Source of the DNA: a virus
Reading direction: 5' to 3' (one strand)
Length of the DNA: 27,714 nt
Virus record (IMG/VR): IMGVR_UViG_3300006871_000123
Span: 1 to 27,714 of that record
Every line of letters begins with the position of its first letter. Position 1 is the stretch's first letter. The translations under genes were made by a program, and so were the position numbers. The notes beneath the pieces are model-generated. The model was not told the origin of the DNA. It saw only the letters and a program-made list of their open reading frames with translations, and searched no databases. This document shows positions 8,534 through 27,714 of this stretch, piece by piece.

Positions 8534-8678
8534 GAGCGATAAAGCGCCTCTTAGCGGTAAAACGATAAAGCGTTAAAGCGTTAAAGCGCCTGAGATGCTG
8601 TACTGCGCCGATTGCTGACTGTTTTACCGTTTTGCGCTTTATCGCTTAGAAGCGCTTTACCGTTTTATCGCTTAAACA
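8534..8678. repeat. GNTAAAGC octamer inverted repeat, copy 1
   Basis: Eight-base units such as GATAAAGC, GTTAAAGC and GGTAAAAC on the left are answered by GCTTTATC, GCTTTACC and GTTTTATC on the right, so the two arms can pair over 30 or more bases with a few mismatches. It fills the 160-nt gap between the tail terminator and tail tube genes. The right arm ends just before the AGGAGA ribosome-binding site of the tail tube gene. Confidence 0.85.
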
Positions 8679-8689
8679 GGAGAACCATC

Positions 8690-9262
8690 ATGGCAGTCGG
8701 AAGCTACAAGATCTACGACCTCACCGCTGCTGCCTTCCAGAAGGATGGCGGTAGCGGCACGGTCACCGACGTGGCGCTGGAGTTCACGAACAAGGTCGAC
8801 CTCAAACCGGACGACGCGACGATCACCTTCGAGGGGGATGGGCAAACGAAGAAGGTCTTCATCACCACCGGGCTGACCGTCGAGTGCAGCCCCGACTCGC
8901 TGAACGTCGCCGCGATGGCCAGTCTCTTCAGTAAGAGCACGGTGACGACCGGGCTGCCGGCCAGCTACACCTCGGGCGTGTGGTTCGGCGAGGCGACGCA
9001 GACGGCGGGCAAGACGGCCGGCTTCTGGGTGGAGGCGAACGCGATCAAGGTCCTGAGTGGCGTCGAGTCGCAGGTCACGATCCGCATCTGGGTGCCACTC
9101 GGCACGCTGACGCTGGGGAATGCGCCCGGCGTCGAGACGAGCAAGAAAGCCGACAAGGTCATGCTGCGCCTCTCGGCCAGCCGCGCCACCAAGGACGTGG
9201 CCGGCAATGCGCTGCCGAGCGTGCCGACGGGCGGCGCGTACTACATCGTGCTCGAAAAATAG
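8690..9262 (+). CDS. Major tail tube protein
   Basis: The ATG at 8690 is preceded by CAGGAGAACC; the frame is also open back to 8612 inside the octamer repeat, which is judged an artefact. The product has 190 residues and is strongly beta-rich: an N-terminal YKIYDLTAAAF, a central DATITFEGDGQTKKVFITTG typical of tail-tube strands, and a C-terminal MLRLSASRATKDVAGN. Position immediately before the frameshifting chaperone and tape measure is diagnostic of the tube subunit in long non-contractile tails. No second sheath gene is present, which favours a siphophage. The gene is isolated by repeats on both sides (octamer upstream, heptamer downstream), which may allow separate control of this abundant product. 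Confidence 0.8.
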   Translation: MAVGSYKIYDLTAAAFQKDGGSGTVTDVALEFTNKVDLKPDDATITFEGDGQTKKVFITTGLTVECSPDSLNVAAMASLFSKSTVTTGLPASYTSGVWFGEATQTAGKTAGFWVEANAIKVLSGVESQVTIRIWVPLGTLTLGNAPGVETSKKADKVMLRLSASRATKDVAGNALPSVPTGGAYYIVLEK

Positions 9263-9267
9263 CTAGC

Positions 9268-9354
9268 TGGGTATCAGGTATCGGGTTTCGGGTATCAGGG
9301 GAAGGAATCTGTCCCCCCGTCCCCGCCACCCGATACCTGATACCCGATACCTGG
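9268..9354. repeat. RGGTRTC heptamer inverted repeat, copy 3
   Basis: A perfect 17-bp inverted repeat is formed by 9269-9285 (GGGTATCAGGTATCGGG) and 9329-9345 (its complement), separated by 43 nt that hold further repeat units. The last unit runs into CCTGGAG, which serves as the ribosome-binding site of the following chaperone gene, so repeat sequence supplies the translation signal. Confidence 0.92.
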
Positions 9355-9361
9355 AGCAGTT

Positions 9362-9841: not shown

Positions 9842-9938
9842 CGACCCGTACGTCGCCTATTGCATTGACCAGGCGGTCCTCCTCGCCGGCTCGCACGCGA
9901 AGAGTGACGAGCCGAAGATCGTGCTGCCAATAGGATAA
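9699..9938 (+). CDS. Tail assembly chaperone frameshift extension (T-like, made as G-T fusion)
   Basis: This is the downstream segment of a fusion starting at 9362. Read from CCC at 9699 after a +1 slip, it adds 79 residues for a total of about 191 (192 if the slip is -2). The segment contains SLRGLQNLHAMAQSYQQRPS and then LTDDPYVAYCIDQAVLLAG. A Leu/Asp-Pro-Tyr-x-Ala-Tyr-Cys-x-Asp-x-Ala pattern is characteristic of the C-terminal part of gpG-T-type chaperones, which contacts the tube protein. No independent ribosome-binding site or good start codon occurs near the beginning; the GTG at 9756 is not preceded by one. It therefore depends on frameshifting. The segment ends just before a heptamer repeat. 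Confidence 0.72.
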   Translation, partial: PRRPTDTPASEGWSLLGTAVRSLRGLQNLHAMAQSYQQRPSSLLGLTDDPYVAYCIDQAVLLAGSHAKSDEPKIVLPIG

Positions 9939-9939
9939 G

Positions 9940-10019
9940 GGGGTATCAGGTCTCAGGTATCGGGTATCAGGAGGATCGGCCTCCGGCCCCGACACCCGAT
10001 ACCTGTTACCCGACACCTC
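9940..10019. repeat. RGGTRTC heptamer inverted repeat, copy 4
   Basis: Left units GGGTATC, AGGTCTC, AGGTATC, GGGTATC pair with right units GACACCC, GATACCT, GTTACCC, GACACCT around a GGATCGGCCTCC centre. The right end CCTCGGAG provides the GGAG ribosome-binding site of the tape measure gene. Confidence 0.9.
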
Positions 10020-10028
10020 GGAGTGGTT

Positions 10029-12923
10029 ATGGCCGGCGGCATAGAGGTCGGTAGCGCGTACTCGATCTACCGTCTCAACCTTCAATATCTCGGACAGGAC
10101 ACCGCCGCGGCCAAAGCGCAGATCCGCGAGCTGCAGGAGTTCGCGCAGCAGCAGGCCGCGCCGCAGATCCGGCTGCCCGCCCCCGCCGCACCAGCCAGCG
10201 GTGGGGGCGCTTCTCGTGGGGGCGACGCGGCAGCGCAGCTCGAGCGCGAGCAGAACGCCGCCTTGTCGCTCGCCCAGGCCAGAGCGCGCCTCGCACTCGT
10301 GGAAGGCGACGAGGCGCGCGCGCTCAGTGTCCTTCGAAACGCCCAAACCCAGAACACCGCCGCCAGTGAGCGCGCCATGCTCGGCGTCCAAACCCAGATC
10401 GCGCGGATCGAGAGCGGAAAAACGGCATTTCAGCAGTTCGGCGAGTCCGCGAAATCCTCCCTGCTCGGCATCGTCGGCCCAGCAGCAGCGGCGGGCGTGG
10501 CGATCGCCACCATCAAGAAGACGATCGACTCGTTCGGCGAGGCGATCAAGTTCAAGGCCGAGCTGGACGCGAGCAAAAAGTCGATCGATACGCTACTGCG
10601 CGGGGTGCGCGATAGCGGCGAGGTGTGGGCGGGCGCGGCGAAGTTCGCCAACGAGTACAAGCTCACGCAGGCGGAGACGACCGAGGCCATCCAGGCGTCT
10701 GTCCGCATTATTCGCAGCAGCAAGGCCCCGATCGAAGACATCCTTGGAGCGTTTGCACGTCTGAAGGTATTGGCTCCCGAGAAGACCTTCTCCGACGCCA
10801 GCCGCGCGCTCTCCGAGTTGCAGGCCGGCCAGGTCGTCAGCATCGAGCATCTCTTCAACGTGCCCCGCCGCGATGCGAACGCGATGAAGAAGGAGATCGA
10901 GGGCGGCGCGGATGCGGTCGTTGTGCTGAACAAATACCTGGACAAGACCGGCGTCACGATGGATGCGGTCAAAGCACAGACCACGGGCGCGATGGGAGCG
11001 ATGAAGGACCTGGCACAAGCGGAAGAGCGGCTCAAAATCGCCCAAGCCAACTTCGCGCAGGGACCAGGGCTGGCCATCCTGAACGAGCGCATCAGTGTCA
11101 CGGATGGGTTGACTCGGCTACTGACGGGCGACACGCAGCAGATGGGCCAGAGTTTCCAGCAGGCCGCACTGCAAGGGACCACCTCATTTCAGACGCTGCT
11201 CAGTGCGCTCGGTCCCATCGGCGGGGCCTTGCAGCAACTCGCCGATGCCGCGCACGCGCACCAGGCCGCCGCGCAGGGGGACGCCCAGCAGACCCAGCAG
11301 ACCGCCGCAGTCACCGCCCAGAGCACCGGTATCACCAGCACCTACACCAACACCATCAATTTGCAATCGCAGGCCATGATCGACGCGGCGGGCGCCACCG
11401 AGAAGCACCGGCAGGCCATCGCTGCACAAACCGACGCCTCCGTAGCGCAAATCGAGAAGACCCAGGCCAGTACAGAAGCGGCGAACGCCCTCGCACAGAT
11501 GCAGGCGGTCCTGGCGCGGCTCGCCGCTTCTGTGGCGGGCGGGCTGCTGAGTGACTCCCAGGCCGCGATTGTTCTGGCGAACGGATACGGGATCGCCTAC
11601 GGCAAGGCGCTGCAACTGATTGACGCCCAGGCGGCGCTGGCGCGTGCGACAGCACAGGTCGAACACCAGAAGTTCGTCAACGAGAACCGCGACGACCTGC
11701 GGGGAAGCCGCGCCAACGCACAGGCAGCCAAGCCGCTTTCGTCGGACTTCCTGGCTGACCAGAAGCGCCGAACGGACGAACTCCGTGATTCAGAGGTCGG
11801 CCTGGCCAAGGCGCGCGGGGAAACAGCGAAAGAGACCGCGCTCCTCAGGCAAGAGCAGAGCCAATACGCGAAAGGCTCGGCGGAATGGAACAAGATCGAG
11901 GCGCAGATCCTTGATACCGAGAAAAGTAAGGCAAAGAAAGGCGCCGGAGGCGCCGCGAAGCTCTCCGACCAGCAGCGACTCAATAACCAACTCCTCAACC
12001 AGCAAGAGAAGGCGGATCAGCAGTTCGAAGACGCGGCCCTTCGTCATCAAAAGGCGCTCCTCAAGATCGAGCGCGACTACCAGGAGAAGAGTTTACAGCA
12101 GCAAAAGGCCAACGAGATCTCGAAGCGTCGCTCCCGTTTTGATTTCTACAACGGCATTCAAGATCTGGATACCAAGAGCCAGCAGGCACTCTCCGCCGAA
12201 TACGAACAGGCGTTCGCCGAGAGCCAGCGGATCGCGCAGTCGGGTAATCACAAGCTGGCCTCGGAATACCTCAAGCTCCGCCAGGACCAGATCGCCGCCG
12301 ACAAGGACTACTACGCCAAGCGCAAGGAGATCGAGGAGAGTGACGCCTCGAAGGGCGAGAAGGCCGCGCAACTGAGGAAGCTCGACGACTTACGCGCGCT
12401 CCGCAAACAGGCCGAAGCGGAAGAACTGAAGCAGCTCCAAGAGGGCGGGGATGCGATCAACAACGAGCACGCCAAACAACTCCAGGACGAGGCCGATCAG
12501 TATGCCGAGCAGACTGGGAAGATCGAGACGGCGAACGCACGCAAGGCCGAGTCCACGATCCTCTCAGCCGAGCGAGGCAAGAAGAAGATCGACGAGGAAC
12601 GGCTGAGCGTCCAGGGCCTTGCTGGCGACTACGACAAGCTGGGCGTGGCCGCCCAGCGGCGCGGGCTTGCTTCTACTGGCGGAGCTTCTGCCTCAGCCCC
12701 AGACACCACCCCCCAGCAGCGCGCCCAGACGACCGCCGATGTGATGCGCGTGTTCGACGCCGCGGCGGTGGATGCGATTACCGCGCAGACGCAGATGCAA
12801 TCGGCGAAGTTCGACATGCTCGGCGGCAAGCTCGACGCGGTAGCAGTGCAGATCGGGACCGTGGCCGATCGGGTGGGCGCGGTCGAGCGGGCAGTGCGAT
12901 CGAGCGGACGGGCGATCTCCTAA
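10029..12923 (+). CDS. Tape measure protein
   Basis: The ATG at 10029 is chosen because GGAG at 10019-10022 is well spaced; a GTG at 10023 is too close to it. The protein has 964 residues and is the longest gene in the window. Gln/Ala/Arg-rich predicted coiled coil covers about residues 25-130. A hydrophobic Ala/Gly/Ile segment at 144-162 (SLLGIVGPAAAAGVAIA) resembles the membrane-active part of tape measures. A helical domain with IQASVRIIRSSKAPIEDILGAF follows, then long Lys/Glu/Gln-rich coiled coils (about 640-870). Tape measures set tail length by spanning the tube lumen at about 1.5 angstrom per residue, implying a tail near 145 nm. No peptidase or lytic domain was recognised. Placement after the frameshift chaperone confirms the call. 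Confidence 0.9.
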   Translation: MAGGIEVGSAYSIYRLNLQYLGQDTAAAKAQIRELQEFAQQQAAPQIRLPAPAAPASGGGASRGGDAAAQLEREQNAALSLAQARARLALVEGDEARALSVLRNAQTQNTAASERAMLGVQTQIARIESGKTAFQQFGESAKSSLLGIVGPAAAAGVAIATIKKTIDSFGEAIKFKAELDASKKSIDTLLRGVRDSGEVWAGAAKFANEYKLTQAETTEAIQASVRIIRSSKAPIEDILGAFARLKVLAPEKTFSDASRALSELQAGQVVSIEHLFNVPRRDANAMKKEIEGGADAVVVLNKYLDKTGVTMDAVKAQTTGAMGAMKDLAQAEERLKIAQANFAQGPGLAILNERISVTDGLTRLLTGDTQQMGQSFQQAALQGTTSFQTLLSALGPIGGALQQLADAAHAHQAAAQGDAQQTQQTAAVTAQSTGITSTYTNTINLQSQAMIDAAGATEKHRQAIAAQTDASVAQIEKTQASTEAANALAQMQAVLARLAASVAGGLLSDSQAAIVLANGYGIAYGKALQLIDAQAALARATAQVEHQKFVNENRDDLRGSRANAQAAKPLSSDFLADQKRRTDELRDSEVGLAKARGETAKETALLRQEQSQYAKGSAEWNKIEAQILDTEKSKAKKGAGGAAKLSDQQRLNNQLLNQQEKADQQFEDAALRHQKALLKIERDYQEKSLQQQKANEISKRRSRFDFYNGIQDLDTKSQQALSAEYEQAFAESQRIAQSGNHKLASEYLKLRQDQIAADKDYYAKRKEIEESDASKGEKAAQLRKLDDLRALRKQAEAEELKQLQEGGDAINNEHAKQLQDEADQYAEQTGKIETANARKAESTILSAERGKKKIDEERLSVQGLAGDYDKLGVAAQRRGLASTGGASASAPDTTPQQRAQTTADVMRVFDAAAVDAITAQTQMQSAKFDMLGGKLDAVAVQIGTVADRVGAVERAVRSSGRAIS

Positions 12924-13034
12924 GCGGTAGAGCGATAAAGCGCTAAAGCGATAAACCGGCTTTCGATCAAAGCCGTACCACATTGGCAGACGACGGTTTT
13001 AGCGTTCTGCGCTTTACCGTTTTATCGCTTAAGA
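12924..13034. repeat. GNTAAAGC octamer inverted repeat, copy 2
   Basis: Left units GGTAGAGC, GATAAAGC, GCTAAAGC, GATAAACC are matched by right units containing GTTTTAGC, GCTTTACC and GTTTTATC. An inner palindrome CGGCTTTCGATCAAAGCCG lies between them at about 12957-12975. The repeat fills the gap between the tape measure gene and the next tail gene and ends at the AGAGGG ribosome-binding site. Confidence 0.85.
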
Positions 13035-13429: not shown

Positions 13430-13515
13430 AGGTATCAGGTCTCGGGTCTCGGGTCTCGGGTCTCAGAAACGAGACTCCGGCTCCCGGCACCTGACACCTG
13501 ATACCCGAGACCTGA
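13430..13515. repeat. RGGTRTC heptamer inverted repeat, copy 5
   Basis: Left units AGGTATC, AGGTCTC and three successive GGGTCTC are followed by right units ACCTGAC, ACCTGAT, ACCCGAG, ACCTGAT. The GGGTCTC variant matches GAGACCT/CCCGAGA variants in the right arm, so the change is compensated in part. The right arm ends 1 nt before the ATG of the next gene, leaving no standard ribosome-binding site other than repeat sequence. Confidence 0.9.
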
Positions 13516-13516
13516 T

Positions 13517-14992
13517 ATGAGTGTCAAGCTCGCCAGCAACAAGCTTGAGTGGTACCAGGGGGGCGCCTGGTACGACATTACCTCCTCCATGCTCGAGGGC
13601 GCCTCCGCCGAGATGGAGACGACCGGCAACCGCGCCAACGCGCTGGCGTTCGGCGAGGCAACCGAGCCGCGGGCGACGATCCCCGTCAAGGACGTGCTCT
13701 CCGCAGCCCCCTGGGAGAATATCCCGATCCGGCTGACTCCGACGCTGGATGGCTCGACGGCGCAGGTCTTCGGCGGGATCATCGTCAACCGCTCGCGAGA
13801 TGTGGCGTCGATGACGTTTGAGTGCGCGGGCTGGGCAGAGCTGATCCGGAAGACCAGCAAAAGTATCTACAGCCCCGCCTTCTATCGCCGGCCGGCCGCG
13901 ACGAAGACCACCGCGACGAGTATCGAGGACCCGAGCAGCGGCAGCTACGCAGGTGGCCTCACCAACTACACCTTCTGGCAGTGCGGCGGCCGGCCCTACG
14001 AACAGGCCGGCAGCTATCCCACGGCGACGTTTTATTACAGCTGCGACCAGGCCGTGCTGGCACCGACATGGAGCTGGCTCGCTGGAGAGGATGGCTGGGC
14101 CGAGCTGCTGAAGCTGGCGCAGGCCAGCGGGGGACAGGTTTACCAGGGACCGGACGGGGTCGTGCGCTACCGGCAGGTGCTGGGCGTTGCGGATCTCACG
14201 CCGGGCGCCAGCTTCGATGAGTCGACCTACAAAAGCATCGCCGAAAAAGCGGACACCGACCAGCGCTACACGAAGCTCACGTGCGCCTACATCCCGCGCG
14301 AGGCGAGGCCGCTACAAGAGGTCGTCAACGACTCAACTTTTCGTCTCGTGCATATCGGCGAGACCATCACCATCACGCTGGAGCCACAGTGGCCGCTCAA
14401 ATCCTTAGAGCAGGCATCTGCAGGTCAGCTCAAAGCGGACACGATCACCGCGGTCTACCTCGACTCGAATGTCGTCGCGCAGGGCGGCAGCGGCTACACG
14501 CATACGCTGGTGGTGGACGCGCAGAGGGTCACCATCACCATCACCAACACGAGCGGCAAACCGTTCGGCATCTATGGGATCAAACTGAACGGCGAGCCGA
14601 TTGTTGCTGGCGAGGCGGGCTCGGTCACCGTCGGCTCAGGCACCATCGTCGGCTCGGCGCTCGACGGCGATGCGGCCGTCTACATCCAGTCGGCGGAGGA
14701 TGGTGAGCGGCTGTGTCAGATGGCGCTGGCGTTCTACAACCTCACACGGCCGATCTACACGCTCACTGACGTGGCGCACGACCCGAGTCTGGATGTCGGT
14801 GACGTGATCAGCCTCACGAATGCGCGCTATGGGCTCTCAGGCGTCGCGTGCGTGCTGCTGTCCATCAAGCTGGACCACGCCGGCGTGGTGGGGGAGTACG
14901 AGGTCTCGCCAGTGACCGGGCTGCCGAAGGCCTCGGACTTCTACATCGTCGGCATCAACTACACCGGCCAGACGAAGCAACTCGGCTATTGA
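13517..14992 (+). CDS. Baseplate hub / tail-tip protein (tail-associated protein type)
   Basis: This 491-residue protein starts at ATG 13517, immediately after the heptamer repeat; there is only a weak GAG upstream. Residues 1-130 form a beta-rich domain (KLASNKLEWYQGGAWYDITS; ATIPVKDVL; VNRSRDVASMTFECAGWAEL) like the first domain of hub proteins. A central region has GWAELLKLAQASGGQVYQGP (about 195-214) and VVRYRQVLGVADLTPGASFDE, as in hub proteins where a strand-helix unit precedes a phage-D-like barrel. The C-terminal part (about 410-480) has LTDVAHDPSLDVGDVISLTN, a common hub motif. It probably forms the trimeric tip that meets the host surface. No peptidase domain was recognised. Confidence 0.65.
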   Translation: MSVKLASNKLEWYQGGAWYDITSSMLEGASAEMETTGNRANALAFGEATEPRATIPVKDVLSAAPWENIPIRLTPTLDGSTAQVFGGIIVNRSRDVASMTFECAGWAELIRKTSKSIYSPAFYRRPAATKTTATSIEDPSSGSYAGGLTNYTFWQCGGRPYEQAGSYPTATFYYSCDQAVLAPTWSWLAGEDGWAELLKLAQASGGQVYQGPDGVVRYRQVLGVADLTPGASFDESTYKSIAEKADTDQRYTKLTCAYIPREARPLQEVVNDSTFRLVHIGETITITLEPQWPLKSLEQASAGQLKADTITAVYLDSNVVAQGGSGYTHTLVVDAQRVTITITNTSGKPFGIYGIKLNGEPIVAGEAGSVTVGSGTIVGSALDGDAAVYIQSAEDGERLCQMALAFYNLTRPIYTLTDVAHDPSLDVGDVISLTNARYGLSGVACVLLSIKLDHAGVVGEYEVSPVTGLPKASDFYIVGINYTGQTKQLGY

Positions 14993-14993
14993 C

Positions 14994-15070
14994 GGGTATC
15001 AGGTATCGGGTGTCAGGTCCCAGGGATGGGACTCCGGCCCCCGATCCCCGATCCCCGATCCCTGACCCCT
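14994..15070. repeat. RGGTRTC heptamer inverted repeat, copy 6
   Basis: Left units GGGTATC, AGGTATC, GGGTGTC, AGGTCCC and right units CCCCGAT (three times) then CCCTGAC. It fills the gap after the hub gene and reaches the ATG of the next gene. The frame of that gene stays open back through the repeat to 15026, which is regarded as repeat-derived rather than coding. Confidence 0.9.
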
Positions 15071-20577: not shown

Positions 20578-20778
20578 GTGATCGAGCAGATACAAAAAGA
20601 ACTCGTCGCGCTCGAGCTCGAGCGCGACGAGTTCATCAAAGAAGTCAACCAAGAGATCGTCTTTCGGAATGGCCAAATCAGCGGCCTACGGCAACTCATG
20701 CAGAAGCTGCTGGCGCCAACAGAAAACGCCGGGCCGTCCAACTCCGAGGCTGAGGAACCCAGCGCGACACCGACCTAG
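20578..20778 (+). CDS. Small coiled-coil protein at end of tail operon
   Basis: The GTG at 20578 follows AGGAGAAACGCCA at 20565-20577, which fixes the start; the larger open frame extending to 20284 is a shadow of the fibre gene. The product is 66 residues: a charged helix (IEQIQKELVALELERDEFIK, then EIVFRNGQISGLRQLMQKLL) followed by a disordered Ser/Pro/Thr tail. Very short helical proteins follow fibre genes in several phages and may aid fibre assembly or be unrelated accessory proteins. Its stop overlaps the stop of the convergent minus-strand gene within CTAG at 20775-20778. Confidence 0.65.
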   Translation: MIEQIQKELVALELERDEFIKEVNQEIVFRNGQISGLRQLMQKLLAPTENAGPSNSEAEEPSATPT

Positions 20779-21251
20779 GTGCGGACGAGTAGCGGCAACC
20801 ACACACAGAACTCGCCCTGCGTGGCAATCGCCAGATCCGCCGCCTCACCATCCGGGTAGGCCTCGGCGAGCGCCGCATGGACCGTGCTGACAAGCGGCAG
20901 GCCCGCACTCGCGCAGCTGCTCCGCGCACTCAAGCGAACGACCATCGGGGCGCTCGCCGAGGCGACCGAAAGGCAGGCCACCACGTTGTCGCTATCTCGC
21001 CAATCGCAATTTCCGGGGGATGTCTCGGCACTGATGATCGTGAGTCGCGGATCGATAGCGATCCGTACTACGACATCGCCAGCAGCGGGATCGGTGCGGC
21101 GCGCGGTGATCGTGTAGTCGATCACCTCCCCTTGCCCGACTCGTGGTGCGCTCGCGGTGACCGAGAGGCTGATCGGGGCAGGCTGAGCACGCACCGCGCT
21201 GCCTAGTAGCAGCAGGGCGACGACGAAAACCAGGATTGTTCGCTGCTTCAT
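20775..21251 (-). CDS. Secreted DUF11-like single-domain protein
   Basis: The start is set at ATG 21251, with GGAGGA about 8 nt upstream; an in-frame ATG at 21266 overlaps that ribosome-binding site. The 158-residue protein opens with a signal peptide (KQRT, then ILVFVVALLLLGSAVRA, cleavage likely near AQP). The rest is a single beta-sandwich domain with VTASAPRVGQGEVIDYTITA and VVVRIAIDPRLTIISA, features of DUF11/conserved-repeat domains, which are common in Chloroflexota surface proteins. Four Cys residues after the signal could form disulfides. It is not obviously a virion protein; a secreted lysogenic-conversion product is possible. It converges on the tail operon and diverges from the gene at 21320. 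Confidence 0.65.
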   Translation of the reverse strand: MKQRTILVFVVALLLLGSAVRAQPAPISLSVTASAPRVGQGEVIDYTITARRTDPAAGDVVVRIAIDPRLTIISAETSPGNCDWRDSDNVVACLSVASASAPMVVRLSARSSCASAGLPLVSTVHAALAEAYPDGEAADLAIATQGEFCVWLPLLVRT

Positions 21252-21319
21252 TGGATGTTCCTCCACTCTTATGAGAGACCATCCTCTCGTGTTTGTTCAC
21301 TTCAGTAAAGGAGCCCATC

Positions 21320-21779: not shown

Positions 21780-22268
21780 CTAGGCTTCCACCGCAATCGG
21801 CGCCGGCGCGAGCTCGATCGTGTGCTCGTCCAGCCACTCGGAGAGCCAGCCGTCGAGCAGCCGCGCAGCCTCGCTCGTCTCGGGCATCATCCCATACCAG
21901 ACGCACGAGACAACCCACGACTCGATCGGCGGTATCACGCTAGGTCGCACATCGCGGTAGCTCAGGCCGCGCTCACGTGCGATGATGCCGAATAGGCAGT
22001 GCATGCTGGTCCGGCCGTCGAAATCGCCGCGTTGCACGGCGTCTCGCACGGCGGTGACCTCATGCGGCGCGCAGTCGGCAAGGACGGCCTGCAGGCTCTC
22101 GTGCGCAGCAGCGGTGCTCGGGACGAGGCGGCCCCGCATGGCGGCGAGCCGCTGAAAAGACGGGTGTTCCGCCACCGCTGGACAGGCCGCGAACGCTCGG
22201 ATGATGGCATCCTCCAGGCGATCGAGCGCGGCAGAGTCGAGACGAACCCGGAGCGTGATTGTGGACAT
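21780..22268 (-). CDS. Hypothetical protein, last gene of minus-strand operon
   Basis: ATG 22268 has AAAGGAG 6-7 nt upstream on the minus strand, so the longer frame to 22334 is rejected. The 162-residue product is mostly helical with an initial strand STITLRVRLDSAALDRLEDA. A region with MHCLFGIIARERGLSYRDVR and another with SEAARLLDGWLSEWLDEHTI are the best-defined helices; Trp and Cys are clustered around 127-133 (ESWVVSCVWYG). No recognised family. It is separated by 62 nt from the ribbon-helix-helix gene and followed by the hairpin at 21739-21775, so it is the probable operon end. Confidence 0.6.
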   Translation of the reverse strand: MSTITLRVRLDSAALDRLEDAIIRAFAACPAVAEHPSFQRLAAMRGRLVPSTAAAHESLQAVLADCAPHEVTAVRDAVQRGDFDGRTSMHCLFGIIARERGLSYRDVRPSVIPPIESWVVSCVWYGMMPETSEAARLLDGWLSEWLDEHTIELAPAPIAVEA

Positions 22269-22330
22269 GGGATCTCCTTTCTGATAGGACTCGAATAATA
22301 CGAATGCGCAGCAAATCGGGGAGGGTGCGA

Positions 22331-22696
22331 TCATACCTCGATCCCGACGCTCAGAAGCGGATCATCGCCCTCCACCGCTTCCTGGAAGTAGGTGCTAGTA
22401 GAGGGCTGTTGAACGTGTGTTGAACGTTCGTTGAACAACACTCCAAACAGCGCCGCTCGCAGACGTGCATCTGTGATTTTTCCCAGCACCGCACTGACCT
22501 CGTCTGCAAACGGCGATACGTCTGTCCCGGCGGCATGAAGCCCCAGGACAAGTAACGCGCGGGCGACAGACGAGGTGTCCCCTGCGCGATCACATCGATC
22601 GCGCAGGGCTTTGCTCAGCCGAAAACCAAGCCTATCATCGCGGCCCACGGACCCGGCTCCTTCTACCAAAGGGCGATCCGCCCGGACGATAGTCAT
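22331..22696 (-). CDS. Ribbon-helix-helix DNA-binding protein, ParR/StbB-like adaptor candidate
   Basis: ATG 22696 is chosen; the frame continues to 23056 but that part shadows the HNH gene. The 121-residue protein has a likely ribbon-helix-helix fold at 21-57: strand DRLGFRLS, helix KALRDRCDRAG, and helix SSVARALLVLGLHAAG. The rest (60-121) is helical then acidic, with VSAVLGKITDARLRAALFGV. In ParM/StbA-type segregation operons the gene after the actin-like ATPase commonly encodes an RHH adaptor that binds centromere repeats, and here the ATPase gene lies just upstream with only the HNH gene between. The start overlaps the 3' end of the HNH gene by 62 nt without a clear ribosome-binding site, implying coupling. 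Partition role is inferred. Confidence 0.6.
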   Translation of the reverse strand: MTIVRADRPLVEGAGSVGRDDRLGFRLSKALRDRCDRAGDTSSVARALLVLGLHAAGTDVSPFADEVSAVLGKITDARLRAALFGVLFNERSTHVQQPSTSTYFQEAVEGDDPLLSVGIEV

Positions 22697-23174
22697 AGGC
22701 GCCGTCGCACTTACGGCTATTGCATGTTCTGCAGAGCGGCTGGACGTTCTGTATGTCATCACGCGGGCCGAGCGGGTCGATATGGTCCATCGACAGGTTG
22801 CGCGGACTTCCACAAGCAAGGCAACGGTCATGGTAGTAGCGACACAATTCTCGCCACTTTTTAGGGGTGATCGAACCAAGCAACACCGGCAACTCCTGCG
22901 GAAGATCGTCTCGCCAGATGCGCGGATATGGCAGATCATGCACCTGGCAATAGCGCTTCCAGATGGGGCGCCAGCGCACACCAAGCTGGTACACCATATC
23001 CTGAAGCCGAGCATCAAGATCACCCGCGTTATTAAAGATCGATACCCCCACATCATACAGTTCGCTCAGGTCGTATCCTGTGGCTTCAAGGCCAAGCAGG
23101 AAGATAGCCTGTGCGGACTGGTCCGACAAATCGAATCGGGCGGCTATATCGATTATGGTTTGCTCCCCGTTCAC
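22635..23174 (-). CDS. HNH endonuclease with N-terminal helical domain shared with the RHH protein
   Basis: ATG 23174 overlaps the stop of the actin-like ATPase gene (ATGA at 23174-23171). The 179-residue protein has a C-terminal HNH module at about 108-160: Cys118 and Cys121 in CLAC, Asp-His at 130-131 in MDHIDPLG, Asn143 in QNVQPLC, and Cys148 and Cys151 in CRTC. These match the zinc-binding ribs and the beta-beta-alpha-metal active site, so activity is plausible. Residues 14-65 (SAQAIFLLGLEATGYDLS, DARLQDM) resemble residues 39-88 of the neighbouring RHH protein. Local GC looks lower than in the tail operon. It could be a homing nuclease that entered the partition operon, or a dedicated DNA-processing partner. 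Confidence 0.75.
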   Translation of the reverse strand: MNGEQTIIDIAARFDLSDQSAQAIFLLGLEATGYDLSELYDVGVSIFNNAGDLDARLQDMVYQLGVRWRPIWKRYCQVHDLPYPRIWRDDLPQELPVLLGSITPKKWRELCRYYHDRCLACGSPRNLSMDHIDPLGPRDDIQNVQPLCRTCNSRKCDGAYDYRPGGSPFGRRSRVRGPR

Positions 23175-24148
23175 TGCCCACCCCCGAGCCTTCTCGCCAG
23201 CCGTGCGTAGCCTCTGGCGATCGCGAGTTGCGGCTCGACAATGACCTCAGCCTGAGGGAAGCGCCGCGCTATCGCCTCGACGAGTTGCGGCACTTCCGCA
23301 CCCCCGCCGCCGATCAGCACGACATCCAGCCCCGCCCCACTCCCCCACGCCTCGACGAGGCGAGAGGCAAGCTGCTCCCCGTTCTCGATCAGCGGCCGAT
23401 CCCATCCCATCGGCAGTGCGGCGAGCCGGCCGCCCACGCGCAGCGCCCCGTCACGCACCGCCTTGTCGGCCTCGACCATCCCCAGTTCGCGATCGAACAT
23501 GGTGGCGAGCTGGCTACGGACCTGCGCGAGCGGCTTTGACGTGCCGAGCTGCCACGTGTCGAGACTGGCCGGCACGGGCACGAGGTTGCGGATGACGGCG
23601 ATATCGACCGTGAGATGGCCGATATCGACAATCCCCACCTTCCCGCTCTGTAGCGATGCGTCCCCCACGATGCGGCCGTTGTTGTCGAGCAAGAGGCTAT
23701 AAATCAAGCCCAAAGGCTCGGGGATGACCTTGATCACCTGATACGCCGTCGCCTCCCTGAGCCGCTCGCCCAGGCGCCGCGCAAGCTCGCCGTCCGTGGC
23801 CCACGACGCCGGGAGGCCCGTGACACAGATCCCGCTGGCCGCCCCGTCGAGGTAGCCGAAGCGGTCGAGCGCGCCCCGCAGCAAGGCGGGGATGAAGGCG
23901 GGGTCGGAGAGGCGCTGCTGGCTCAGGATCGTGGTGGGGCTGCCAGCCAGCAGCGCGTCGTCGCCCGTCCAGTAGCGCGTGCCGCCGATATCGACGCTCG
24001 CGGCCTGCGCCAGACCGCCAGCGACAGCGTGGCTAGATCTGGCGATCTGCGAGGGGAAGACGACAGCGGGCAGCTCGGCTCCTTGAGCTGTGATGACAAC
24101 ATATTTCACATATCCATGGCCGATATTAGGTCCATGCCCGGCTATCAT
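23171..24148 (-). CDS. ParM/StbA-family actin-like ATPase
   Basis: The ATG at 24148 follows AAAGGAGCCCATC, an excellent signal. The 325-residue protein has the actin-fold motifs in order: phosphate-1 NIGHGYVK (8-15), connect-1 VIPEPLGLIYS (141-151), phosphate-2 GIVDIGHLTVD (172-182), adenosine loop VVLIGGGGAEV (276-286), and a C-terminal EPQLAIARGY (305-314) typical of plasmid StbA/ParM proteins. The usual Asp at the start of phosphate-1 is Asn8. Such proteins polymerise with ATP and push or position DNA through an adaptor. It sits 12 nt downstream of the SH3b membrane gene and overlaps the HNH gene, so it belongs to the operon. A role in partition of a plasmid-like prophage or in positioning phage DNA is inferred. 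Confidence 0.85.
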   Translation of the reverse strand: MIAGHGPNIGHGYVKYVVITAQGAELPAVVFPSQIARSSHAVAGGLAQAASVDIGGTRYWTGDDALLAGSPTTILSQQRLSDPAFIPALLRGALDRFGYLDGAASGICVTGLPASWATDGELARRLGERLREATAYQVIKVIPEPLGLIYSLLLDNNGRIVGDASLQSGKVGIVDIGHLTVDIAVIRNLVPVPASLDTWQLGTSKPLAQVRSQLATMFDRELGMVEADKAVRDGALRVGGRLAALPMGWDRPLIENGEQLASRLVEAWGSGAGLDVVLIGGGGAEVPQLVEAIARRFPQAEVIVEPQLAIARGYARLARRLGGGQ

Positions 24149-24160
24149 GATGGGCTCCTT

Positions 24161-25189
24161 TCACTGTGTTGGCTTACTGATCGGCGTCTGATGCATCGAG
24201 TCCACGATCGCCTGATCTGTCATTTGATAGCGCCAATCGAACACGCCGTGAATCGGCGCATCAGCGGGCGCCGCCGTCGGCGTAACGAGGCCGCGCCGCA
24301 CCTCAGCCGCATGTTCCTCGGCGTGCCGCTCGGCGACCTCCTGGCTCAGGCATGACGCGCCCATAGCCGTGCCGATAATGCGCCCCGCGTCGTCCTTGAC
24401 CTGCACCACGACCTTGTACGGCGCGGCATCGCGCTCGGCAACCGTCTGGCATTCGTGTGGTGCTGAGGGCTGAGGGCTGAGGGCTGGAGGCTGGAAGAGT
24501 GGCGCCGGGGTCGGTTGCGCCGGCGCATCGGTCGGAGGCGCCAGATCCGGCAGACTGTCGAGACCGCACGGGTACCGGGTATCGGGGACCGGGTTCCGGG
24601 AGCCGGGCGCCTCCCCCGACACCTGACACCCGATACCTGACGCCCCCTCCGGCCAGCGCACCCACACCGCAGCACCGTTCGCGAGCCGGAGCTGCAGCCA
24701 GTCACGCGCGATGCGGGCGACGGGCACAAACCGCGTGCCGGACTCCAGCGCGGTGGCGCTCGACAGGTCGCGCGGGTCGAAATAGGCCACCGTCGCGGCG
24801 CCCAGCGGATAGCCGAACGGCGTGGCGACAGGGGAGGGCGCCGCCGTAGGTGCCCCGATCGGGGTGATAGACAGGGACACAGCCCCGTCTTGCGGGGAAG
24901 CCCCGATCCGGCTGATTCCGATGATCAGCACGAGCCCCAGCAGGAGCCCCGCCGCCACCGCCGCGGCGATGGCGCGTCGGCTGAGCGGCGCTGCCTTGCT
25001 CGCTGCCGGCGCTGACTGCTTCGGCGATGGCGGTAGGAAGGACGCGATCCGGCCATCTGGCGCAGGCAGCGCCGCGGCCTTCTCCGCTGGCGCTGTCTCA
25101 CCTTCTGTCAACCCCTCCCCATCAGGCGGAACCACCATCACGAAGCCGCGGGCATCGCGGTCGGCGTCAGTAAACTGTAGCGATGCCAT
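24161..25189 (-). CDS. Single-pass membrane protein with outer SH3b-like domain
   Basis: The start is ATG 25189, overlapping the upstream stop (TAATG); the frame open to 25264 is a shadow. The 342-residue protein has a Pro/Ala-rich cytoplasmic N-terminus, then one membrane helix at 73-92 (AIAAAVAAGLLLGLVLIIGI) preceded by SRR, so the C-terminus is outside. Residues about 132-180 (TRFVPVARIARDWLQLRLAN, then AAVWVRWP) fit a bacterial SH3 domain, which often binds cell wall. Residues 184-208 are encoded by a copy of the heptamer repeat, and 232-245 by GGGCTGA repeats; both are Pro/Ser-rich linkers. A final domain (250-342) has two Cys and a helix VAERHAEEHAAEVRRG. It could anchor the system at the envelope. 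Confidence 0.65.
   Translation of the reverse strand: MASLQFTDADRDARGFVMVVPPDGEGLTEGETAPAEKAAALPAPDGRIASFLPPSPKQSAPAASKAAPLSRRAIAAAVAAGLLLGLVLIIGISRIGASPQDGAVSLSITPIGAPTAAPSPVATPFGYPLGAATVAYFDPRDLSSATALESGTRFVPVARIARDWLQLRLANGAAVWVRWPEGASGIGCQVSGEAPGSRNPVPDTRYPCGLDSLPDLAPPTDAPAQPTPAPLFQPPALSPQPSAPHECQTVAERDAAPYKVVVQVKDDAGRIIGTAMGASCLSQEVAERHAEEHAAEVRRGLVTPTAAPADAPIHGVFDWRYQMTDQAIVDSMHQTPISKPTQ
24463..24495. repeat. GGGCTGA heptamer tract inside a coding sequence
   Basis: Three to four tandem units GGGCTGA lead into GGGCTGG and AGGCTGG. On the coding (minus) strand they give Leu-Ser-Pro-Gln-Pro-Ser-type linker residues. No inverted partner is adjacent. It lies in frame in the SH3b membrane protein gene. 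Confidence 0.7.
24571..24645. repeat. RGGTRTC heptamer inverted repeat, copy 7, inside a coding sequence
   Basis: Units GGGTATC, GGGGACC, GGGTTCC, GGGAGCC and then GACACCT, GACACCC, GATACCT repeat the architecture of the intergenic copies. Here the whole copy is in the open frame of the SH3b membrane protein and encodes a 25-residue linker between the SH3b-like domain and a Pro-rich stretch. It contains no stop codon in that frame. Confidence 0.85.
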
Positions 25190-26331
25190 TACGCCACCTC
25201 CCGTTCTGTCCAGCGCCACTGGCCGCGAATGTTCCCCTTCGTTATGACGCCGTCTTCCTCCCATTCCGCGAGTACGTCGCGCGCGGTGCGCTCCTCGACG
25301 CCAAGATGCGTGGCGAGTTTGCGCGCCGTTACGAATGGCTGCAACGCTTCAAATGCCGACTCGTACTCTTCCGCGTAGCGCGGCGCCCCGCGGCGCCCCG
25401 CGGCGGGGCGCCGCGGGGCGGAACGGGGAATTAACGCTTCTGGCGCTTGATTCTCGTCCACCACCTCACCCCGCAGGACAGGTGTACCGTTCACGAGTGC
25501 CGCGCGGATCTCTCCATAGCGCTGCGTAACGAGCGGATCGTTATAACTCGGCAGCGCATGCTCGAGTCGCGCATCCTCGTCGAGCGTGTCGGCGATGTCG
25601 AGCATCAATGCTCGCTCGGCCTCATGGAGCCCGATCAACATGCCGGCGACATATTCCCGCTGTTCGGCGGTCGCGCTGTCCAGGCCGGCCTTGAGGATAT
25701 TCAGCGCACGGCGATAGCTGGCCTTCGCGAGCGCGATGTCTTGCTTGTGCGTCATCTTGAGGCGTTCGACCTGGTGCGACTGCTGGACTTCCGTCAACCA
25801 AATGATCGGCGTGCCGTAGTTGCTGGACCAGGCCGGCACGACGACGAAAAAGATTGTGGTCATGGCAGTGAGCGCGTAGACCAACATCTCATCAGCGGTG
25901 ATCGGCCCAGTCGCGGGGTCGATGACACCGACTCGGCCACGCCACCAATTGACGAGGATGTAGAGCGTGAAGCCGACCAGAAGGAGGCAGGACCCACCCA
26001 GGAGCCAGAAGCCCCAAGCCGAGCGGCGGACCTCCTGAAGATACTGTGCCGCGGCGGTGTGGGGGAAAATCGCCGCACACAGTGCCGGCATGACCACAGC
26101 GCAGCAGAGCGCCAGGATGAGGGCGAAGGCGGCGAGGAAGCCGCCCGTAACGAGGGATTCGAGTGTTGCGGTGTTCTGTGGGCTCGTGAAGCTGGGCTTA
26201 ACGAAGCCCCAGAGCACCCATGCCCAAAAGCAGAACGCAGCGGCGAGCCCGAGATCGCCCGCGAACTGGACCAGGCCGCCCGAGCGGTTCGCGTGGCGGG
26301 CCTGGCGATAGGTGGCCTCTAGCGCATCCAA
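25189..26331 (-). CDS. Four-helix membrane protein with cytoplasmic C-terminal winged helix
   Basis: The start TTG 26331 is preferred because GGAGG lies 7 nt upstream; an in-frame GTG at 26415 has no signal and would add 28 low-complexity residues. In this numbering the 380-residue product has membrane helices at about 24-43, 62-88, 106-128 and 148-168. A charged helical region follows (YRRALNILKAGLDSATAEQR; YVAGMLIGLHEAERALMLDI), then an Arg/Pro/Gly linker (302-318) encoded by a perfect GC-rich palindrome. Residues about 327-377 form a winged-helix candidate: FVTARKLATHLGVEERTARD, then LAEWEEDGVITKGNIRGQWRW. Membrane helices plus a terminal DNA-binding domain suggest a membrane tether for DNA. 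It is translationally coupled to the SH3b gene. Family unknown. Confidence 0.7.
   Translation of the reverse strand: MDALEATYRQARHANRSGGLVQFAGDLGLAAAFCFWAWVLWGFVKPSFTSPQNTATLESLVTGGFLAAFALILALCCAVVMPALCAAIFPHTAAAQYLQEVRRSAWGFWLLGGSCLLLVGFTLYILVNWWRGRVGVIDPATGPITADEMLVYALTAMTTIFFVVVPAWSSNYGTPIIWLTEVQQSHQVERLKMTHKQDIALAKASYRRALNILKAGLDSATAEQREYVAGMLIGLHEAERALMLDIADTLDEDARLEHALPSYNDPLVTQRYGEIRAALVNGTPVLRGEVVDENQAPEALIPRSAPRRPAAGRRGAPRYAEEYESAFEALQPFVTARKLATHLGVEERTARDVLAEWEEDGVITKGNIRGQWRWTEREVA
25384..25420. repeat. Perfect 18-bp GC-only palindrome inside a coding sequence
   Basis: The arms 25384-25401 (CGCCCCGCGGCGCCCCGC) and 25403-25420 are exact complements separated by one base. Each arm itself contains a CGCCCCG direct repeat. 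It encodes the Arg/Pro/Gly-rich linker before the winged helix of the membrane protein. In RNA it would form an extremely stable hairpin on either strand. Confidence 0.85.
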
Positions 26332-26461
26332 GATAGCACCTCCGTTCGAGTTGTCGAGCAGCGGTGCTTTTGCTATGCTTGCACCGCCGCCATTGCTTCT
26401 ACCAATGGTGGCCACCGGCCAGGCGGAGCAGCACCGCGCTGGCCGGACCTGTCGAAACGCT

Positions 26462-27537: not shown

Positions 27538-27592
27538 AGCGGCAGAGCGGTAGAACGGTAAAGCGTTGCTTTATCGCTTTAGCGTTTTAGCG
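27538..27592. repeat. GNTAAAGC octamer inverted repeat, copy 3
   Basis: Left units GGCAGAGC, GGTAGAAC, GGTAAAGC face right units GCTTTATC, GCTTTAGC, GTTTTAGC across GTT, giving a compact hairpin with few mismatches. It is the shortest copy. Its right end supplies the stop codon of the partial gene at the window edge. Confidence 0.85.
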
Positions 27593-27714
27593 TTTTTCCT
27601 GCTCCTTCCTCTCCACCAACAGCAGCGCATCGGCGTAGCCGCCCTGCCAGCGCGGATCGGCGGCGACGGAGAGCGCGATGCGCCGGCGCTCGACCTCCAT
27701 CTGCTGTTCATAGT
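27587..27714 (-). CDS. Hypothetical protein, 5' end outside window
   Basis: The minus-strand frame is open from the window edge to TAA at 27589-27587, giving about 42 residues of a C-terminus. It reads as a charged helix (YEQQMEVERRRIALSVAADP, then RWQGGYADALLLVERKEQ). The final codons and the stop lie in the octamer repeat, so the natural C-terminus has been set by repeat sequence. An ATG at about 27700 could serve as a start, but no ribosome-binding site can be judged at the edge. Function unknown; probably part of the same operon. Confidence 0.55.
   Translation of the reverse strand, partial: YEQQMEVERRRIALSVAADPRWQGGYADALLLVERKEQEKR

Follow-up and report, generated by a model that had tools for sequence, protein, structure and literature searches.

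It is already known that phages can carry a ParM-type ATPase together with a ribbon-helix-helix (RHH) adaptor. The Bacillus phage-plasmids B83 and IEBH and their relatives likewise combine an actin-like ATPase and an RHH-type adaptor gene in a siphophage, with iterons nearby, and the available excerpts of these reports mention no pair of a four-transmembrane (4-TM) winged-helix protein and a one-TM protein (PMC6669507, PMC8026635). The AlpAC-alpS system of the Corynebacterium prophage CGP3 also consists of an actin-like ATPase, a DNA-binding adaptor and repeats, and moves phage DNA towards the membrane; within the excerpts of the two papers no dedicated membrane DNA-binding protein is mentioned (PMC4446434, PMC5539076). 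The ParMRC system of plasmid R1 and pSK41 ParM share the ATPase family and the gene order ATPase-adaptor with the locus described here, and R1 ParR requires at least two 11-bp repeats (PMC9426499). In phage SPO1 a "partition protein" gene is likewise followed by a small overlapping gene (gp27.9/gp27.8), but gp27.9 is only about 27% identical to our ATPase over half of the protein and no such membrane genes are annotated alongside. We know of no membrane partners in the ParM operons of R1 and pSK41.

The window, by which we mean the whole stretch of 27,714 nucleotides that was analyzed, spans an entire IMG/VR record, a linear fragment that lacks the remainder of the genome. The initial annotation had placed a five-gene minus-strand operon with coupled starts between 21780 and 26331, and had proposed a membrane-tethered actin-like system for positioning or partition of DNA. 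The order of the five ORFs and their overlaps were borne out, but the region also takes in a sixth ORF (21780..22268, minus strand, 162 aa, strong Shine-Dalgarno sequence before its ATG) with weak relatives only, and the RHH-like gene itself occupies 22331-22648. The first gene, encoding the 4-TM protein memWH, ends in a stop codon that shares one base with the ATG of the one-TM gene; the TGA of the ATPase gene overlaps the GTG of the HNH gene, and the adaptor start lies 14 nt within the HNH gene. Of the six starts, only that of the HNH gene lacks a Shine-Dalgarno-like sequence in front of it. A promoter scan gave a weak sigma-70-like site directly before memWH, which is not evidence of function, and no tRNA or tmRNA was present in the window.

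The claim of a ParM/StbA-type ATPase is well founded at the level of sequence. The 325 aa product of 23171..24148 (minus strand) is actin-like by sequence (PF17989 above the cut-off, 3e-7) and matches PHROG 691, "partition protein", at 1.5e-27, as did 6/6 members of the subfamily, and the best solved match of the family profile was pSK41 ParM (3js6, 1.3e-4). Six relatives with 51-64% identity were found. The phosphate-2 (VDIGHLT) and adenosine (LIGGGG) motifs are retained. In R1 and pSK41 ParM the phosphate-1 residue is an Asp; here the phosphate-1 loop reads GPNIGHG with an Asn that is invariant in all six aligned members, and since the usual Asp is absent it is uncertain whether this ATPase hydrolyzes ATP.

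The putative adaptor (22331..22648, minus strand, 105 aa, GTG start) was described from an alignment of seven sequences and a structure model. It has an N-terminal DNA-binding pattern, a variable linker and a conserved C-terminal tail, DDPLLSVGIEV, with a VGIEV-like end. The sequence pattern and two predicted helices (12-21 and 24-38) fit the RHH fold that had been assigned to it, but fold and family searches for that fold gave no match, and comparison with the PDB by sequence and by fold returned nothing or weak unrelated entries. ATPase and adaptor occur together in each of the seven phages with this ATPase subfamily, the adaptor gene lying directly downstream of the ATPase gene; in the window the HNH gene intervenes, and in L114 it is fused to the ATPase gene. 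On the strength of this co-occurrence we regard the two as a ParM/ParR-type cassette.

The HNH endonuclease (22635..23174, minus strand) that the initial annotation counted among the working parts was readily recognized as such (PF01844, 1e-7, 32.3 bits against a cut-off of 21.4). It is absent from 5 of the 7 ATPase phages and lies between ATPase and adaptor genes only in the window, and because of this absence and the fusion in L114 we regard it as a variable insertion rather than a core part. The case for a working component, for instance a nuclease acting on competing DNA, is that two of the seven phages have an HNH at this junction of ATPase and adaptor, in one fused to the ATPase and in the other with an adaptor-like N-terminus; the N-terminal 60 or so residues of the HNH protein do resemble part of the adaptor (BLASTP E 2e-4; hhalign 5e-4, with a probability of only 31%). 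Given that five phages lack it and that its architecture differs between the two cases, we consider such a role improbable.

Tandem sites near the operon, which the initial annotation had proposed to look for, were found inside the adaptor gene itself. Three GTTCAAC heptamers, read in three different frames, follow each other at 11-bp spacing at 22408..22436 (minus strand). A 7-mer scan showed that this is the only array of its kind in the window, including the region upstream of the ATPase gene, and none was expected in shuffled sequences. Arrays are found at the matching place of the adaptor gene in four relatives (L108, L119, L113 and L114), taking the forms of four GTTCAAC copies, two GTAGGAC copies plus an inverted one, 12-bp inverted repeats and one palindromic pair; L114 has a single repeat pair only, and the adaptor genes of L110 and L115 have no array. 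When the adaptor genes were recoded with synonymous codons, the arrays of the window, L108 and L119 were reproduced in 0 of 2000 trials each, while that of L113 was reproduced in 118 of 2000 and is not clearly beyond chance.

The array thus looks like a candidate centromere within the adaptor gene. This location sets it apart from the described systems, as a parC-type centromere is usually found upstream of parM, as in R1 ParMRC (PMC9426499), the 24 alpS repeats of CGP3 occupy the promoter region ahead of the operon according to the excerpts (PMC4446434, PMC5539076), and the B83 excerpt places the iterons before the parM-like gene, within 165 bp of it (PMC6669507). The B83 arrangement lends some weight to a different explanation, in which the array is an autoregulatory operator or an internal block of transcription and the true centromere is formed by other repeats or lies outside the fragment. 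Autorepression is common among RHH proteins, R1 parC doubles as centromere and operator, and two relatives do without an array. The position about 210 bp into the adaptor gene, away from the operon start, speaks against an operator, and no similar array was found elsewhere in the window or in the L108 or L119 sequence, so we hold this explanation to be possible but rather unlikely. A literature search found no precedent for a centromere within a parR gene, which is weak evidence as the search matched irrelevant papers, nor, in the excerpts it returned, for an equivalent in parB. For type I systems there is a precedent, since one of the parS sites of B. subtilis sits within spo0J.

The other unusual feature of the operon is its membrane pair. 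As had been described, memWH (25189..26331, minus strand, 380 aa, TTG start after GGAGGTG with an alternative GTG start at 26415) has four hydrophobic helices (26-44, 71-89, 109-127 and 149-167) and a C-terminus modelled as a winged helix; it also has a long helical stretch. The model has the order H-H-H-E-E with pLDDT 81-86, and in Foldseek the C-terminus resembled IclR/MarR/ArsR-type domains with a probability near 1 but E values of only about 0.2-1. No Pfam or PHROG family was assigned to memWH, and scans of viral and genome contigs with the single protein returned nothing; relatives were detected only with a three-member alignment as query. Ten distant relatives were aligned, and four aligned relatives lack the winged helix. 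A role in defense was rejected, as the sole PADLOC hit was a weak one, between the winged-helix segment and a model of a Fic protein. The second protein (24161..25189, minus strand) does have the single TM helix ascribed to it (66-84), along with a Pro-rich extracytoplasmic part, but the SH3b-like domain found no support in Pfam, the bacterial SH3 model matching none of eight family members up to E 10, though a divergent domain of this type may be present. An in-frame heptad-repeat hairpin is present at 24560-24655 within the gene.

Relatives of the one-TM gene follow memWH in L089, L090, L101, L104, L117 and L118 and precede it in L108. A partition ATPase adjoins memWH in 4 of 11 phages: ParM in the window, L108 and L110, and ParA in L118. 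In L118 the genes for ParA and a DUF3102 protein immediately precede the pair, and five 8-bp iterons are found upstream. In the remaining 7 of 11, whose records are probably fragments, neither ParM nor ParA was detected. As no partition ATPase was detected in most relatives that carry the pair, memWH and the one-TM protein are a separable unit of their own. The genes thus do occur apart from one another in part, which the initial annotation had named as grounds for refutation, but one of these instances involves a second, unrelated partition system and so speaks in favor of a link. With ParM beside the pair in three phages and ParA and DUF3102 in one, a role as membrane tether is plausible, and we infer a membrane-linked way of holding phage DNA, as the pair's place beside a differing partition system suggests. 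Phage phi29 p16.7 has one TM helix and a homeodomain-like domain, an architecture unlike that of memWH. It works like the role proposed for memWH, being a phage membrane protein that the available excerpt ties to membrane-associated phage DNA replication and to MreB, a host actin (PMC4446434); no homology is claimed.

It is a real possibility, though not the one we favor, that the operon is a composite in which the membrane pair is merely co-transcribed with the partition cassette and does an unrelated job such as superinfection exclusion, envelope sensing or membrane-bound gene regulation. In G002, G006, G041, G042 and G050 the pair is present with no partition ATPase detected, in G043 and G044 memWH is present without either the one-TM gene or such an ATPase, and the four relatives devoid of the winged helix fit a composite as well. 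Yet the arrangement in L118 and the nearness of memWH to ParM in L108 and L110 speak for a connection, and the ATPase phages that lack memWH have other membrane or FtsK/HerA-like genes after the cassette. The latter genes could also indicate an apparatus for DNA translocation or conjugation, with an FtsK/HerA-type ATPase, an M23 peptidase and 4-TM proteins, that the window shows in part. FtsK/HerA-like ATPases adjoin memWH in L105, L107 and L110 and the ATPase/adaptor pair in L113, L115 and L091, and M23 peptidases occur in L110 and L114, but the window and the stretches of L108, L118 and L119 that were inspected showed no ATPase of this type, which makes a translocation apparatus highly improbable.

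Tyrosine recombinases are encoded in 12 of 26 records, nine of which have two apiece; several relatives thereby resemble B83, which according to the excerpt has two of the Xer type (PMC6669507). With the capsid alignment as query, only one of the genome contigs scanned gave a match, and it came from a Blastocatellia MAG. The assembly of this MAG had no match to the ATPase or memWH profiles; the heptad repeats may hint at a host among the Chloroflexota.

Our preferred reading, to which we give a probability of about 60%, is that the phage carries a type II (actin-type) cassette for partition or positioning and that this is coupled to a membrane module. The ParM/RHH-type part of the original proposal is well supported by the occurrence of the pair in seven phages, the conserved adaptor tail and the tandem candidate sites; the membrane tether is what we infer, and the HNH gene drops out of the core, having presumably inserted where ATPase and adaptor genes meet, as a mobile or homing-type element. 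In such a system dimers of the RHH-like adaptor would bind the 11-bp-spaced sites in their own gene, and the C-terminal tail would, by analogy with ParR, capture the ends of ParM-like ATPase filaments. Polymerization could then move circular or replicating phage DNA, so that copies are separated as in phage-plasmids, or DNA is pushed to the membrane as by AlpC of CGP3. Perhaps, and this is the least secure of the steps, memWH, with a one-TM partner that extends towards the wall, might keep either the adaptor complex or the DNA of the phage at the membrane.

What is new at this locus is the intragenic array and the membrane pair. Only tentatively do we go further and suggest a partition system that carries its centromere within the reading frame of its adaptor, adaptor specificity and site being inherited together, and in which a dedicated family of 4-TM DNA-binding proteins, serving both actin-type (ParM) and Walker-type (ParA) systems of phages, keeps the cargo at the membrane. 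If the array is the centromere, adaptor and DNA site would be inseparable and could be exchanged between phages with specificity kept, and the divergent arrays (GTTCAAC, GTAGGAC and GGTGACAGCACC) would be a natural series for studying site choice in an adaptor family. Should the membrane pair prove to be the tether, the question of how the envelope retains phage DNA would have a testable answer, and one common to two unrelated partition engines.

The window takes up the whole of a 27,714-bp IMG/VR record; as this is classed as linear, it is probably a genome fragment. Its first gene (716-1726) encodes the capsid protein (PHROG 212, major head protein), from which long plus-strand ORFs extend as far as 20566. 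Converging on these from the other strand is the operon, and the five genes claimed for it in the initial annotation are real: the ORFs were located in order on the minus strand, with coupled starts and a Shine-Dalgarno-like sequence ahead of five of the six starts in the operon. They encode a membrane winged-helix protein (memWH, 26331-25189), a one-TM protein (25189-24161), an actin-like ATPase (24148-23171), an HNH endonuclease (23174-22635, PF01844) and a small putative DNA-binding adaptor (22648-22331); a sixth ORF follows at 22268-21780. A secreted-looking DUF11-like protein is encoded on the operon's strand at 20775-21266, in the stretch that separates the operon from the tail genes, and comparable short secreted ORFs lie close to the same junction in the related phage loci L101 and L117.

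By PF17989 and PHROG 691 the ATPase is a member of the actin-like ParM group, and its family profile matches the solved structures of pSK41 ParM (3js6) and CorM. Six further members of the subfamily are about 51-64% identical, and Asn takes the place of Asp in the phosphate-1 loop of each of the six sequences aligned. For the adaptor, a family search gave no match and a fold search gave none naming its fold. Seven aligned adaptors have in common a strand-helix-helix pattern, followed by a linker that varies and a C-terminal tail whose last residues are VGIEV or similar; in the structure model, helices 12-21 and 24-38 have a pLDDT of 85-90 and are accompanied by two further helices, while the linker and tail are of low confidence. 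The HNH gene, previously counted as part of the system, is not core: it separates the ATPase and adaptor genes of the window, locus L114 (9872-11320) has a natural fusion with an HNH domain on the C-terminus of the ParM-like ATPase, and the other five phages of the ATPase set lack HNH. Since the N-terminal segment of the window HNH protein resembles the adaptor (pairwise BLASTP 2e-4; hhalign 5e-4, at only 31% probability), the gene may combine an HNH with an incomplete copy of that for the adaptor. We read the ATPase/adaptor junction as prone to insertions.

A search for tandem sites near the operon had been suggested, and an array not seen at that time turned up inside the adaptor gene, where it is the strongest new feature of the system. 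It reads GTTCAACGAAC GTTCAACACAC GTTCAACAGCC on the minus strand from 22436, just past the region encoding the helical domain. The period is 11 bp and the three heptamers are translated in three different frames (FN, ST and VQ), so that protein selection alone is no sufficient explanation. A scan of the window for exact 7-mers in either orientation that recur at spacings of 9-25, with three copies as the minimum, returned this array only (0 of 100 shuffles). The adaptor gene of locus L108, whose protein is 43% identical to that of the window, carries four copies of this heptamer, spaced by 11 bp, at the corresponding position and no others in 15 kb, and that of L119 has GTAGGAC, GTAGGAC and GTCCTAC at 11 bp, again in the same place, with no other copies in 17 kb. 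Two 24-bp palindromes built of 12-bp units are found in the adaptor gene of L113 and a single pair in that of L114, where GAC/GTC has become GAT/ATC with the symmetry kept at that position; no array was found in the adaptor genes of L110 and L115. When the adaptor gene was recoded synonymously, with codons drawn from each phage's own usage (that of its adaptor and ATPase genes; for L119, of the adaptor gene only), no draw out of 2000 reached the observed chain for the window, L108 or L119, and 118 of 2000 did so for L113; the exact-chain statistic is zero for L114, L110 and L115. ParR of plasmid R1 requires a minimum of two 11-bp repeats (PMC9426499). Most simply, the array can be read as the putative site of adaptor binding, i.e. 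a centromere or operator within the adaptor's own gene. In L115, six 9-bp repeats (TCACTCTAG/TTACTCTGG) lie at 2132-2190, 7.8 kb upstream of the ATPase, and are possibly an alternative centromere or origin.

The window also holds seven long hairpins of 7-bp periodic units (GGTATCAGGTATCGGG... / ...CCCGATACCTGATACC) at 1745-1835, 2255-2350, 9262-9358, 9935-10022, 13430-13520, 14988-15068 and, within the one-TM gene, 24560-24655. The tested hairpin pattern was absent from the other loci compared, except L001, which is window DNA; heptad repeats of this sort are reminiscent of Chloroflexota genomes. A second, 8-bp periodic family (AAGCGATA/GCGTTAAA) occurs at 8545-8680, 12915-12960 and 27560-27600.

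Besides its four TM segments the memWH protein has a long helical stretch, together with a winged helix predicted with good local confidence, which resembles IclR, MarR, ArsR and DtxR type domains (Foldseek; high probability, modest E-values). The SH3b-like domain proposed for its one-TM partner is unproven, as Pfam recognised no domain in eight family members. Of 173 related stretches from a capsid-based scan, 80 loci were retained, two of which (G002 and G006) have the one-TM gene behind memWH and lack ATPase, HNH and adaptor. Alignment-based scans added more memWH phages and the six further ATPase-subfamily members, including L108 (one-TM, memWH, ATPase, adaptor; no HNH) and L110 (ATPase, adaptor, an M23-peptidase gene, memWH, a 4-TM protein and an FtsK/HerA-like ATPase); in L113, L114, L115 and L119 other membrane or translocase-like genes come after ATPase and adaptor. 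In locus L118 (7788-11941) five 8-bp iterons CTTGTCAT lie upstream of ParA (PF13614, 4e-46), which is accompanied by a DUF3102 protein; the memWH and one-TM genes come immediately after these two. Judged by these gene orders, ATPase and adaptor form one unit and the membrane pair another; the two units can occur apart, and they are found together more than once. FtsK/HerA-like or P-loop ATPases with TM segments adjoin memWH or the ATPase/adaptor pair in six loci (L105 2407-3531, L107 4133-5251, L110 10753-12234, L113 12024-13451, L115 11265-12761 and L091 8921-10423), possibly as parts of a larger membrane DNA-handling module. One phage record (L091 7121-8613; G016:C1:23128-23883) combines ParA with a divergent ParM-like gene that has an RHH-like ORF downstream of it. 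Tyrosine recombinases were found in 12 of 26 related records, nine of which have two apiece.

The initial annotation was of the right kind in proposing a ParM/RHH-like partition or positioning system, given the ATPase family, the ATPase-adaptor pair and the arrays. It tied the parts together too closely, and its membrane link is plausible only: the membrane pair recurs next to two unrelated partition engines, the ParM type (three of eleven memWH phages) and ParA (one), but neither was detected within the records of the other seven. We regard this recurrence as pointing to a working link, short of proving one. Two precedents are AlpC, an actin-like protein that together with its adaptor transports prophage DNA, once excised, to the membrane and raises its copy number (PMC4446434), and ParM with RHH proteins in the phage-plasmids B83 and IEBH (PMC6669507, PMC8026635). 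By analogy with established systems, the adaptor would bind the array and its tail the ATPase filament, which would in turn move the DNA; more tentatively than any of these steps, memWH may anchor either the DNA or the complex to the membrane, its one-TM partner reaching outward.
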